DNA from: Oscillospiraceae bacterium
GTDB lineage: Bacteria > Bacillota > Clostridia > Oscillospirales > Ruminococcaceae
Assembly: GCA_017847875.1 (NCBI GenBank)
Contig: JAGASN010000002.1
Span: 62,001-126,000, forward strand
DNA length: 64,000 bases
Direction of reading: 5' to 3'
Within the stretch, counting starts at the first letter, position 1; the number at the start of each line of letters is the position of its first letter. This document shows positions 3,229 to 34,110 of this stretch, in pieces. A program made the translations under genes and the position numbers. The notes under the pieces are model-generated. The model was given only the letters and a program-made list of their open reading frames with translations, made no database searches and was not told where the DNA came from.

Positions 3229-4557
3229 TCAGCCTTTGTCGTTTCCGCGTTCGCGGATTACCATTTTGATGGGCGTTCCGGTAAGACCGAAGGTTTCTCT
3301 TATCTGGTTTTCAAGATAACGCTGGTAAGAGAAATGGAAAAGATCCGCGCGGTTGCAGAAAGTTACAAAAGTCGGCGGGTTGGTGGAAGCCTGGGTCATA
3401 TAATAAATCTTCAGGCGTTTGCCTTTATCGGAAGGCGGCTGGACTTTTGCGGTTGCGTAAGCAAGCATATCGTTGAGCATACCGGTGGAAATTCTTCTGC
3501 AGTTCTGTTCCCTTGTTGAAACAATGAGCTCAAAGAGTTTGTTTATTCTCTGACCGGTTTTTGCGGAAATGAAAACAAAAGGAGCATAGGACATGAAGCT
3601 GAAATCCGTCTGGAGCTTTTTGGTGAATTCGCTCATGGTGTTGGTTTCTTTTTCAATTGCGTCCCATTTGTTGATTGCGATTACGCAGGCTTTTCCCTGT
3701 TCATGGGCATAACCGGCAACTTTGCTGTCCTGTTCGGTGAATCCTTCGGTTGCATCGATCATAATTACGCAAACGTCGCTGCGGTCAACCGCCATATAAG
3801 AACGGAGAACGCTGTATTTTTCAATCTCGTTATCAACCCTGCTTTTGCGGCGGATACCTGCGGTATCGATGAGAACGAATTTTCCGTATTCATTTTCAAC
3901 TTCGGTATCGGTTGCGTCGCGGGTTGTTCCCGCCATATCCGCAACGATAACCCTTTCTTCGCCGGCAATTTTATTGACAAGGCTGCTTTTTCCAACGTTC
4001 GGTTTTCCGATGATGGCTACTTTTATTGTATCATCGTCTTCATCGTCTTCTTTGTCGAAATCGATATATTTGAAACATTCGTCAAGAAGGTCGCCGGTTC
4101 CGTTACCATGAACGGAAGAAACCGGGAACGGATCGCCGAGACCGAGGTTATAGAATTCATAGAATTCAGGCGGCGGTTCGCCGATTCTGTCGCATTTGTT
4201 TACGCAAAGGACAACGGGTTTTCCGCTTTTGAGAAGCATTGCGGCAATATCCGCATCGTTTGCGGTAACGCCGGAATGAAGGTCGGTTACAAGAATTATA
4301 ACATCGGCGCTTTCGATAGCAACGTTTGCCTGCGCTCTCATTTTGGAAAGTATGCCGTCATCGGTTTTGGGTTCGATACCGCCGGTATCGACAAGCATTA
4401 CCGTTTTGTTGAGCCATTCACATTCGCAGTAGATTCTGTCCCTTGTTACGCCGGGGGTATCTTCAACAATTGCAAGGCGTTTTCCGGTAAGCTTATTGAA
4501 AAGGGTGGATTTTCCCACGTTGGGGCGACCCACTATTGCAATAATCGGTTTTGCCAT
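3229..4557 (-). CDS. der: Ribosome biogenesis GTPase Der (EngA)
   Basis: Der is a double-GTPase needed for 50S subunit maturation. The 442 residues hold two G domains. The first has GRPNVGKS at 10-17, then D-T-G-G and N-K-C-D; the second has GKPNVGKS, D-T-A-G-I and N-K-W-D. They are followed by the KH-like C-terminal domain. An acidic linker (D-K-E-D-D-E-D-D-D) separates the two G domains. The ATG at 4557 follows GGAGG by nine bases. The neighbours DUF512 and plsY are a standard Clostridia arrangement. Confidence 0.97.
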   Translation of the reverse strand: MAKPIIAIVGRPNVGKSTLFNKLTGKRLAIVEDTPGVTRDRIYCECEWLNKTVMLVDTGGIEPKTDDGILSKMRAQANVAIESADVIILVTDLHSGVTANDADIAAMLLKSGKPVVLCVNKCDRIGEPPPEFYEFYNLGLGDPFPVSSVHGNGTGDLLDECFKYIDFDKEDDEDDDTIKVAIIGKPNVGKSSLVNKIAGEERVIVADMAGTTRDATDTEVENEYGKFVLIDTAGIRRKSRVDNEIEKYSVLRSYMAVDRSDVCVIMIDATEGFTEQDSKVAGYAHEQGKACVIAINKWDAIEKETNTMSEFTKKLQTDFSFMSYAPFVFISAKTGQRINKLFELIVSTREQNCRRISTGMLNDMLAYATAKVQPPSDKGKRLKIYYMTQASTNPPTFVTFCNRADLFHFSYQRYLENQIRETFGLTGTPIKMVIRERGNDKG

Positions 4558-31565: not shown

Positions 31566-32816
31566 TTATTCTTCCTCTGCTTCGGAAAGCGGTTCAAGTT
31601 TTTCAACAAGGGCGGTATCCACCCTCATTCCGTCAACGGTTTCGACAGTGAATCTGTAGCCGCTGTTTTCAAAGGTATCGCCCACTTCCGGAACTTTGTT
31701 GAGTTCGTCCATGATCCAACCGCTCAAGGTTGCATAAGGAACTTCCTCAATATCGATTTCAAGTTCTTCAAAAAGTTCTTCCGGTTCCATACTTCCGGAA
31801 ACGGTATAAACGCCTTTGTTTTCGCTGATATCCTCTTCAACTTCGTCGTGTTCGTCCCAGATTTCGCCGACAAGTTCTTCAAGAATATCTTCCATTGTTA
31901 CAATTCCGTAAGTGCCGCCGTATTCATCGGTTACAACAGCCATGTGGCATTTGTTTTTCTGAAGAAGTTTCAAAAGGGCGCCGATTTTCATGGTTTTCGG
32001 AACAAAGACCGGTTTTGTAAGCATTGTATCGGCGATGTTTTCCATTTCATAATTGTTATAGAAATCGGTGCGGTGGATAATTCCGATTATGTTATCAAGG
32101 CTGTCCACATAAACCGGAAGACGGGAATATCCGGTTTCCACAAAAACTTCCGCAACTTCTTCCTTTGTCCAGTCTTTTCCTACCGCTTCGATATCAACAC
32201 GGGGAGTTGCGATATCCGCGCAGTCGTTTTCGTTGAGTTCCATTGCGTTTCGGATAAGTTCGCCTTCCTGTTCTCCGATTCCGCCGCTGTGTTCAACTTC
32301 ATCGACCATGGAAAGAAGTTCTTCTTCGGTAACAGCCTGTTCGTCGCCGCATTTAAAAATGATTGAAATAAGCTTTTTCCAAAGACCGAAAAGATAGTTT
32401 ATGGGGGTAAGGATTACCGCAAGGAAATTGATTATCGGTGCGGAAAATCTTGCAAAAGCTTCGGGAGATTCCTTTGCAACGCTTTTCGGAGTAATTTCAC
32501 CGAAAATGAGAACAACAACGGTGATTACCGCGGTGGAAAGAGTTGCGCCCGCATCGCCGACAAGTTCGATAAAGAAAACAGTTGCCATTGCGGAAAGGGC
32601 AATGTTTACTATATTGTTGCCGACGAGGATCGTTGTAAGAAGGCGGTTATAATCTTCAACAAGACGAAGCATAAGGATTGCGCCTTTGTCGCCTTTTTCT
32701 GCAGAAATTTTTAGTTTTGTAATATTAAGACTGTTGAAAGCGGTTTCCGTTGCGGAAAAATATGCCGACATCATTACAAGAACGCCCATGGCGATTATTG
32801 TGCCGATATTGTTCAT
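31566..32816 (-). CDS. CNNM/CorC-type transporter (DUF21-CBS-CorC_HlyC), probable Mg2+ efflux
   Basis: The 416 residues show a DUF21 membrane domain (about 1-190, starting with a TM helix and S-A-Y-F-S-A-T-E-T-A-F), two CBS motifs (about 200-320, including T-P-R-V-D-I-E-A and M-T-K-P-V-F-V-P), and a C-terminal CorC_HlyC domain. Bacterial members export Mg2+ or affect Mg2+/Co2+ resistance; the old name hemolysin is misleading. The ribosome binding site before ATG 32816 is poor. Upstream is a leader with a short ORF and terminator, suggesting control by attenuation. Confidence 0.92.
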   Translation of the reverse strand: MNNIGTIIAMGVLVMMSAYFSATETAFNSLNITKLKISAEKGDKGAILMLRLVEDYNRLLTTILVGNNIVNIALSAMATVFFIELVGDAGATLSTAVITVVVLIFGEITPKSVAKESPEAFARFSAPIINFLAVILTPINYLFGLWKKLISIIFKCGDEQAVTEEELLSMVDEVEHSGGIGEQEGELIRNAMELNENDCADIATPRVDIEAVGKDWTKEEVAEVFVETGYSRLPVYVDSLDNIIGIIHRTDFYNNYEMENIADTMLTKPVFVPKTMKIGALLKLLQKNKCHMAVVTDEYGGTYGIVTMEDILEELVGEIWDEHDEVEEDISENKGVYTVSGSMEPEELFEELEIDIEEVPYATLSGWIMDELNKVPEVGDTFENSGYRFTVETVDGMRVDTALVEKLEPLSEAEEE

Positions 32817-32857
32817 TTTTTAATTGATACAACCTTTCGAAAATTTATAATTAACGC

Positions 32858-32899
32858 AAAAAAGCACAGCCCGAGGCATTTTTTTGCCCAGGCTATGCT
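32858..32899 (-). terminator. Intrinsic terminator inside the CNNM leader
   Basis: On the minus strand an imperfect stem pairs AGCATAGCC with GGCTGTGCT and TGCC/GGCA around an A-rich loop, then T6 (32858-32863). It begins eight bases after the stop of the 12-codon leader ORF. Confidence 0.75.
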
Positions 32900-32906
32900 C
32901 CGAAAA

Positions 32907-32945
32907 TCAATTTATAATAATACTTGGTATGTCTGCGTCGTCCAT
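32907..32945 (-). CDS. Leader peptide MDDADIPSIIIN upstream of the CNNM gene
   Basis: A 12-codon ORF starts ATG at 32945, six bases after AAAGGT, and stops TGA at 32907. Its N-terminus has Asp at 2, 3 and 5 and Pro at 7. It lies about 30 bases after a consensus promoter and eight bases before an intrinsic terminator, with the CNNM gene beyond. In enterobacteria, Asp/Glu/Pro-rich leader peptides (MgtL type) destabilise ribosomes at low Mg2+. By analogy this could couple translation to termination. That role is inference; peptide production is unproven. Confidence 0.6.
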   Translation of the reverse strand: MDDADIPSIIIN

Positions 32946-32975
32946 TTTTTGACCTTTCAAAAATATAATATGAAT

Positions 32976-33004
32976 ATTATACACAAGCGTTGCTCACTTG
33001 TCAA
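32976..33004 (-). promoter_or_regulatory. Consensus sigma-A promoter for the CNNM leader
   Basis: TTGACA (32999-33004) and TATAAT (32976-32981) on the minus strand, 17-base spacer, directly after the mnmA stop codon. Confidence 0.88.
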
Positions 33005-34015
33005 TCACCCGATGATTATTCCGCCGCCGAGAAGTTTTTCACCGTCATAGATAACTGCGGACTGTCCAGGGGTCACAGCTCTCTGGGGTTCATCAAAAAG
33101 GATAAGCGCTCTGTCATCACGGAAATAGGTGCTTGCGAGAGCAGGAGCGGGATTATGAGCATAGCGGATTTTGCATGTCACCGCGACAGGCATATCCGGT
33201 GCACCGTTTATCCAATGGAAAGCGCCGACGATAACGCGCTTTTTGAAAAGGGATTCGTTTTCAACGAGAACAACTTCGTTTTCTTCCGGGTCGATTTTTC
33301 CGACATAAAGCGGCGCCGGAAGAGAAAGTCCGAGACCTTTTCTCTGGCCTATGGTATAGCGGCAGATGCCCTTATGTTCGCCGAGGCATTTTCCGCATTC
33401 ATCAACAAATTTTCCGTGGGGCATTTCGCCGATTACCCGTTCGATATAACCATGGGTATCTCCGTCCGGAATAAAGCAGATATCCTGGGAATCCGGCTTA
33501 TTCGCAACGGGGATTCCCGCTTTTTCCGCAATTTCGCGGATTTCGTCTTTTGATAAATCCGCAAGAGGAAAACGAAGATGAGGAATAAGTTCCTTATCTA
33601 TGTTATACATCATATAACTCTGGTCTTTCGCAAGGTTTTTTGCCCGGAAGATGTTGTTTCCGTCGGTTCTTGCATAATGACCTGTGGAAATAAGGTCATA
33701 GCCGAGTTTTTGCGCTTCCTCGAAAAAAGCCGGGAATTTAATGAATTTGTTGCATCTTACGCAGGGGTTCGGTGTTCTTCCCTTTTTATATTCTTCGGTG
33801 AAATTATCGAGGACTTCCTTTTTGAAAATTTCGCGGAAATCGAAAATATAATGCGGGATTCCGAGAAAATCCGCAACGGCTTTTGCGTCCTTTGCTTCGT
33901 CCCAATCATCAAAAAGGCGGAAAGTCGCTCCCGCGACCTCGTAACCCTGTTCTTTTAAAAGATATGCTGCGGCCGCACTGTCAACTCCGCCGCTGAGCCC
34001 GACCATTACCTTCAT
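33005..34015 (-). CDS. mnmA: tRNA 2-thiouridylase MnmA
   Basis: MnmA thiolates U34 of tRNA Lys, Glu and Gln with sulfur relayed from IscS. The protein of 336 residues starts MKVMVGLSGGVDS (PP-loop at 7-13), has N-P-C-V-R-C-N-K-F-I-K-F with the first catalytic Cys, S-T-G-H-Y-A-R, and S-Q-D-I-C-F-I with the second. The start is ATG 34015, which overlaps the stop of a 32-residue membrane ORF as ATGA; a GTG four codons earlier is possible. It is slightly shorter than typical MnmA (about 360). Confidence 0.95.
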   Translation of the reverse strand: MKVMVGLSGGVDSAAAAYLLKEQGYEVAGATFRLFDDWDEAKDAKAVADFLGIPHYIFDFREIFKKEVLDNFTEEYKKGRTPNPCVRCNKFIKFPAFFEEAQKLGYDLISTGHYARTDGNNIFRAKNLAKDQSYMMYNIDKELIPHLRFPLADLSKDEIREIAEKAGIPVANKPDSQDICFIPDGDTHGYIERVIGEMPHGKFVDECGKCLGEHKGICRYTIGQRKGLGLSLPAPLYVGKIDPEENEVVLVENESLFKKRVIVGAFHWINGAPDMPVAVTCKIRYAHNPAPALASTYFRDDRALILFDEPQRAVTPGQSAVIYDGEKLLGGGIIIG

Positions 34016-34110
34016 CCTATCATCCACGCAAGAGCAAAGGCAAAGGAAGGAACTATCATCGCAATGATGAGAACAATTACCATAATTCTTACAAAAAGCT
34101 TGTTCTGCAT
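34012..34110 (-). CDS. 32-residue single-pass membrane miniprotein
   Basis: A short gene starts ATG 34110 behind an excellent GGAGGTAAAAA and ends TGA at 34012, overlapping the mnmA start by the classic ATGA. The peptide is MQNKLFVRIMVIVLIIAM followed by V-P-S-F-A-F-A-L-A-W-M-I-G: one basic N-terminal turn, then a single TM helix. It lies 15 bases after lepB. I cannot name a family; small DUF4044-like proteins are comparable in style. The strong ribosome binding site and coupling argue that it is translated. Confidence 0.72.
   Translation of the reverse strand: MQNKLFVRIMVIVLIIAMIVPSFAFALAWMIG

Follow-up and report, generated by a model that had tools for sequence, protein, structure and literature searches.

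Leader architecture at the CNNM locus

The minus strand of the window, by which we mean the whole stretch of 64,000 nucleotides analysed here, encodes a CNNM/CorB-type transporter directly downstream of mnmA, and the interval between the two genes holds a compact leader with its own promoter, a short open reading frame and an intrinsic terminator. In the direction of transcription, the features are as follows:

33005..34027, minus strand: mnmA (tRNA 2-thiouridylase; Pfam PF03054, PF20258, PF20259), the upstream neighbour, outside the leader unit
32976..33004, minus strand: promoter of the sigma-70/SigA type, TTGACA-17-TATAAT, matching consensus at 12/12 positions; hexamers kept in congeners, spacer divergent
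32953..32958, minus strand: Shine-Dalgarno sequence GAAAGG of the leader ORF, 7 nt 5' of its ATG, assigned from sequence; invariant in 14 genomes
32907..32945, minus strand: leader ORF MDDADIPSIIIN with its stop, 12 codons, acidic at residues 2, 3 and 5; D2, D3, A4, D5 and S8 invariant in 14 genomes
32858..32899, minus strand: intrinsic terminator, hairpin at 32899-32863 (about -25 kcal/mol), T6 at 32863-32858
32833..32838, minus strand: putative Shine-Dalgarno sequence GAAAGG of CNNM, 16 nt 5' of its ATG, assigned from sequence; invariant in 14 genomes
31566..32816, minus strand: CNNM/CorB-type transporter of 416 aa, with DUF21/CNNM, a CBS pair and CorC_HlyC (Pfam)

The transporter assignment draws on Pfam matches to PF01595 (E 9e-49), PF00571 and PF03471, and the nearest solved chain is 7m1t, a CNNM/CorB "hemolysin with CBS domains" (E 9e-55). 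The stop codon of mnmA (33007-33005) directly adjoins the -35 hexamer of the leader promoter (33004-32999), which is followed after 17 nt by the -10 hexamer (32981-32976). The leader peptide is coded by ATG GAC GAC GCA GAC ATA CCA AGT ATT ATT ATA AAT TGA, with the ATG at 32945 and the TGA at 32909-32907. A preliminary description of this DNA had reported the consensus promoter and, beyond it, a 12-codon ORF with a ribosome binding site, a terminator ending in T6 and then the CNNM gene, and we find all of these elements to within one base of where it put them. It had also placed the stop eight bases before the terminator; the gap is indeed short, but the predicted fold gives 7 nt between the stop and the first paired base of the hairpin. 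The folding of the leader as a whole surpasses that of all 200 dinucleotide shuffles (z -4.2).

For CNNM itself, GAAAGG is the sole Shine-Dalgarno-like sequence, and its 16-nt spacing to the ATG is unusually long. The plus strand carries, at 32824-32851 within the CNNM 5' leader, a promoter-like sequence (TTGATA-16-TATAAT, 11/12) directed back through the terminator and leader ORF, from which an antisense transcript is possible. When 1.0 Mb of the home genome, window included, was scanned on both strands, the CNNM leader was the only clean case of an acidic upstream ORF (uORF) with a terminator, and three other matches resemble gene ends or an alaS leader. Near 4441 on the minus strand of L386, a uORF-like match and a strong hairpin lie 5' of an alaS-like gene, probably as an unrelated leader.

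Conservation within the genus

Thirteen related genomes have a close CNNM ortholog (82-99% identity), and the leader is present in every one of them, so that with the home genome the same promoter hexamers, Shine-Dalgarno sequence, ORF and hairpin are found in 14/14, the hexamers being scored only where the contig extends to them. The -35 and -10 hexamers, the Shine-Dalgarno sequence, the first five codons and the base of the stem are invariant or nearly so, and variation is found in the hairpin loop, the stem tip and codons 6, 7 and 10; the stem is kept, with changes on both sides at two of the tip pairs. In nearly all genomes the peptide reads MDDAD[I/T]RSI[x]IN, with Met, Lys, Leu and Phe also occurring at residue 10. 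The motif D-D-x-D-x-P, for which the preliminary description had proposed a search, does not survive as such, residue 7 being Pro in the window's genome only and Arg in the other 13. Acidity rather than an Asp/Pro signature is thus the conserved feature in this genus, with Pro prominent in other lineages only.

The exact leader motif occurs as one copy per genome in 14/15 genomes, and in the remaining one (G012) CNNM has diverged and is preceded by a leader of its own, MDDGDPGG. In several congeners (e.g. at loci L003, L004, L011 and L015) the upstream gene is a different one, and promoter, ORF, terminator and CNNM remain together. Because the leader stays with CNNM when its upstream neighbour changes, the unit is to be assigned to CNNM rather than to mnmA.

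Within the genus, the conserved residues of the leader also keep their codons, which is unusual when compared with CNNM itself, where this is so at only 35/218 invariant residues, and an additional RNA-level constraint may therefore act on the leader here. A further observation at the RNA level is that codons 3-5 of the uORF (GACGCAGA) can pair with the U-tract and GCGUU after the terminator in an 8-bp helix that is invariant in the genus (alignment columns 81-88 with 164-171; in the window, about 32940-32930 with 32862-32853). This long-range helix was sought across lineages and not found (mean z -0.28).

Distribution beyond the genus

In the CNNM 5' regions taken from genomes of the order and from named species, the leaders are unlike one another in sequence and have a common plan. 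Many are Asp-rich, such as MDDADSDADRIIYIEDLGHGLA, MDSDSSDDYDNCYLRNDKHICG, MDGDSSEDDTANF..., MQDDADGDAAPYHSITNV, MDDADCDEDRTNCK... (Lactonifactor longoviformis) and MPDNAPEDAAPYND... (Hungatella hathewayi). Others are rich in Pro, including MDEPPPSNN..., MSDPDPAGR..., MDEPPLTGNQPG... (Intestinimonas butyriciproducens) and MDEPPLPDNPNDRRRR... (Pseudoflavonifractor phocaeensis, locus L161). By family labels, no fewer than eleven families of the order, and the named species as well, have acidic CNNM leaders. The comparison of related genomes that the preliminary description had called for thus came out in its favour with respect to the short ORF, its acidic N-terminus and the terminator, all of which are kept with CNNM in the genus and recur in these families.

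The excess over expectation was assessed by two tests. In one, a uORF with a Shine-Dalgarno sequence had to carry at least 3 D/E in residues 2-9, with the expectation taken from dinucleotide shuffles; 28/83 non-genus orthologs have such a uORF against 2.4 expected, and with at least 4 D/E the count is 17 of the same 83 against 0.15. The other adds a terminator whose 5' arm begins after codon 8 and no more than 25 nt after the stop, and is passed by 14/14 leaders in the genus, 30/83 in the order set and 20/80 in the named set, as compared with 0.1, 0.1 and 0.3 in shuffles. Removal of similar leaders left a non-redundant set of 142 CNNM orthologs from outside the genus group, 44 of which have a D/E/P-rich uORF with a terminator in the same geometry. 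The D/E/P criterion was picked after the first leaders had been inspected; independence is large but not complete for the named set. The same uORF-plus-terminator test is passed by 2/359 control genes of comparable genomes (a set that leaves out the CNNM of the window), by 0/38 CNNM paralogs and by 1/42 importers of Mg2+ (MgtE/CorA), whose upstream regions, examined for uORFs, yield them at chance level only. For CNNM orthologs versus control genes, Fisher's test gives 2e-24. The occurrence of the leader is not due to chance.

Nor is the device universal among CNNM orthologs: by a loose criterion a uORF is found in 71/142, about half being without one, and in a phylum-wide draw the more distant CNNM lineages mostly lack it. 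Two D/E/P-rich uORFs, MDDVPLYETK.. in Acetobacterium wieringae (L176) and MEEVPLSRCN.. in a genome of the Erysipelotrichaceae (L217), end at the CNNM start codon or shortly 5' of it, no terminator was seen there by eye, and their placement suggests a translational-coupling version of the same logic.

What the peptides have in common

Across lineages, the codons, the positions of individual residues, the length of the peptide and its C-terminus all vary, and the N-terminus remains acidic, within residues 2-9 (e.g. MDDADSDADR, MDSDSSDDYDN, MDGDSSEDD, MDEPPPSN and MSDPDPAGR). Such an acidic N-terminal run, with or without Pro, is what is found in sensors based on intrinsic ribosome destabilisation. 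Among peptides sub-selected on residues 2-5, the D/E frequency is 0.32 at residues 6-9, a figure that is not selection-free since the peptide set itself was picked on residues 2-9, and falls to 0.08 at residues 10-13, which is free of selection; basic residues rise from 3% to 16% between the same two segments. Asp outnumbers Glu about tenfold in the family (114 vs 11), and both Asp codons are in use (GAC 90, GAT 24). Because acidity of the N-terminus persists while codons and positions vary, and because both Asp codons are used, the comparison points to selection acting on the nascent chain rather than on the RNA sequence, with peptides that converge on composition and not on sequence.

We also considered whether the acidic motif has moved into the N-terminus of CNNM itself in orthologs without a leader. 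D/E at residue 2 is found in 41/69 leaderless and 28/71 leader-bearing orthologs (p about 0.03, phylogeny ignored), and this candidate was dropped as a weak trend only. Paralogous CNNMs without a leader (L002 of G000, L033-L071) often start with M/L-D-[ST]-P-G or MDDPGSP, N-termini that could be ribosome-destabilising by analogy with that of E. coli CorC.

Geometry and proposed mechanism

The leader has a translatable short ORF (putative, as read from the sequence) between promoter and gene, and an intrinsic terminator that is placed, on geometry alone, where a translating ribosome could affect its folding, as in an attenuator in the broad sense. With no limit imposed on distance, 65/67 acidic uORFs come to within 9 nt of the hairpin, end in it or run past it. 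In 36/38, the hairpin follows the last acidic codon at a distance of 17-58 nt. This is the geometry needed for the earlier proposal that a ribosome at the stop codon covers the terminator stem. With the end of the uORF near or in the hairpin and the acidic codons well 5' of it, a ribosome that completes the ORF would cover or melt the stem, and one lost on the way would leave the stem free. Four folded leaders were compared for a shared sequence farther 5' that could pair with the 5' arm, and none was seen; since no mutually exclusive antiterminator hairpin is apparent, we propose occlusion by the ribosome and not a classical attenuator of the trpL type.

We therefore picture the system as follows. 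The promoter 3' of mnmA would yield a short leader RNA with the Asp-rich ORF and the intrinsic terminator. At ample Mg2+, a stable ribosome would finish the ORF and at its stop cover the foot of the terminator stem, or, in other species, translate into or through the stem; with the stem covered, RNA polymerase would continue into CNNM. At low Mg2+, the acidic N-terminal run would destabilise the ribosome (intrinsic ribosome destabilisation), which would drop off at least 17 nt before the hairpin, so that the terminator folds and the exporter is off. The leader is thus probably a translation-controlled transcription attenuator of a CNNM Mg2+-efflux gene, on at ample Mg2+, in which completion of an acidic peptide blocks termination. 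The sequences themselves show how the leader is built, that it is conserved, that its peptides converge, how uORF and hairpin are placed and that the device is specific to this CNNM group. The attenuator mechanism is well supported by comparative evidence; ribosome drop-off, antitermination and Mg2+ as the signal are steps that we infer. The genus peptide, with its three acidic residues only, may be a mild destabiliser.

The RNA polymerase of Bacillus subtilis is reported to outrun ribosomes, and a polymerase outrunning ribosomes in Firmicutes would weaken antitermination that depends on coupling. Short distances between uORF and hairpin may help coupling despite a fast polymerase.

Comparison with known systems

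A close known relative in design is mgtL-mgtA of Salmonella and E. coli, where a short peptide with an acidic, Pro-containing N-terminus (MEPDPTPLPRRR in E. coli, starting MEPDP) is likewise encoded 5' of a Mg2+ transporter, and where low Mg2+ is sensed through the drop-off of ribosomes, which turns the importer on (PMC11282234). The Pseudoflavonifractor leader MDEPPLPDNPNDRRRR is strikingly close to MgtL in composition, and the DEPPP and DPDP runs of some lineages also recall its MEPDP. This likeness is compositional, and we claim no sequence homology between the leaders. The CNNM leader falls outside the mgtL family proper, its gene being a CNNM and not an MgtA-type P-ATPase. Furthermore, mgtL uses a Rho-dependent terminator by way of RNA refolding, whereas the CNNM leader has an intrinsic terminator that the uORF abuts or overlaps. 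Drop-off on mgtL switches an importer on; on the CNNM leader it should switch an exporter off. We infer, then, that completion means on and drop-off means off, the reverse of mgtL and a sign that suits an exporter. The preliminary description had argued for the same sign, and this fits the induction of Salmonella corC and mgpA by high Mg2+ (PMC12421838).

A short uORF with acidic, destabilising residues is also found in Salmonella mgtQ-mgtB, where Asp2 and Glu5 of the 8-aa mgtQ destabilise the ribosome and are needed for regulation and the Pro codon is dispensable (PMC8092293), which fits the Pro-less peptide of the genus. Unlike the CNNM leader, mgtQ is intergenic and controls the translation of mgtB, an importer gene whose expression is promoted by drop-off. 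CorC (YbeX) of E. coli is a related protein (CBS pair and CorC_HlyC in common) with the same expected sign, on at ample Mg2+. Its N-terminus is described as an intrinsic-ribosome-destabilisation sequence in the part of the work of Chadani 2021 that is cited in PMC12421838, and its start, MSDDNSHSSD, is close in composition to the leader MDSDSSDDYDN; the destabilising sequence of CorC lies within the gene itself, however, and there is neither a separate uORF nor a terminator. A leader ORF 5' of an exporter-type gene is found as well in yoaL-yoaE/mgpA of E. coli and Salmonella, and loss of its translation lowers expression, as cited in PMC12421838. YoaL was rejected as a direct parallel, its N-terminus (MDRHRRHF) not being acidic and yoaL overlapping the gene start.

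Transporter genes of Firmicutes are likewise placed under Mg2+ control in cis by the M-box (ykoK) riboswitch, but there the RNA senses directly and no peptide is involved. Neither the M-box (RF00380) nor any other Rfam family matches the leader in the window or at L001. An M-box was found at L296, the mgtE locus of the diverged congener G012, which also has CorA. The genus has MgtE and is mostly without CorA; at the mgtE locus of G000 (L284) there is no M-box, and the encoded N-terminus, MAEPEERFEEVYDELRDELE, is very acidic.

Alternative explanations

The same attenuator might answer to a signal other than Mg2+, with CNNM tuned to general ribosome stability or translation capacity (bL31, polyamines, EF-P/ABC-F activity, antibiotics). 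Peptide-induced destabilisation does respond to ribosomal protein L31 (PMC8092293) and to EttA (PMC11282234), and the sequence has nothing that is specific to Mg2+. Against this, the device is found with the CNNM group as opposed to 359 other genes and the Mg2+ importers, and Mg2+ is the one signal that connects a sensor of ribosome stability with a Mg2+ exporter; we regard a different signal as unlikely, if by no means far-fetched. A classical amino-acid attenuator, in which ribosomes stall at Asp (or Ile) codons when charged tRNA is scarce, would be in keeping with the three Asp and four Ile codons among the window's 12 and with the preference for Asp over Glu in the family. The Ile codons are not kept, however, as shown by the variety at residue 10, and CNNM is not an Asp or Ile gene. 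Nor did folding reveal a conserved antiterminator 5' of the 5' arm. Some lineages have DEPPP or DPDP with few Asp codons, and because of these leader classes Asp-codon attenuation was set aside as improbable.

That a structured, riboswitch-like RNA element is at work, with peptide coding incidental, would account for the invariant nucleotides of the first codons in the genus, so unlike the codon usage at invariant CNNM residues, and for the long-range 8-bp helix between uORF and post-terminator sequence. Yet the leader has no Rfam match, the helix is absent across lineages, and between lineages only the acidity of the peptide and the hairpin persist, which leaves this reading very improbable. 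Finally, genes commonly end in intrinsic terminators and the hairpin does lie between mnmA and CNNM, so that one might take it for the mnmA terminator, or for an inert leader terminator, and the ORF for a by-product of AT-rich sequence. We give this next to no credence, as a consensus promoter separates mnmA from the hairpin, congeners with another upstream gene retain the leader, and the uORF is conserved and enriched far above shuffles and control genes.

Significance

Seen as a whole, the translation-controlled attenuator of CNNM would belong to a known kind, the ribosome-destabilising leader peptides, and what appears new is the reversed sign, the intrinsic terminator and a wide distribution for which we found no description; a search of the literature, covering open-licence papers only, did not turn up an account of such a leader in Firmicutes. 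The broader proposal is that Clostridia and neighbouring Firmicutes have a widespread class of switches for Mg2+ excess, in which destabilising leader peptides hold CNNM exporters off unless the ribosome is sufficiently stable to finish them, in a terminator form and an apparent translational-coupling form, with a sign opposite to that of mgtL. We consider this generalization about as likely to hold as to fail.

Acidic nascent chains that sense the environment by destabilising the ribosome are known mainly from Mg2+ importers of enterobacteria. Should the present reading be right, a large share of gut Clostridia would employ an identical physical effect, turned by evolution into a switch of opposite sign for an exporter, in which the sensor consists of no more than a few acidic residues and the output of a bare terminator. 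The leader would then be a minimal system in which to study nascent-chain-induced drop-off and would help to recognise efflux-acting CNNM genes in annotation, as well as offering a handle on Mg2+ homeostasis in a Firmicutes genus that is mostly without CorA and has no M-box at the mgtE locus checked.
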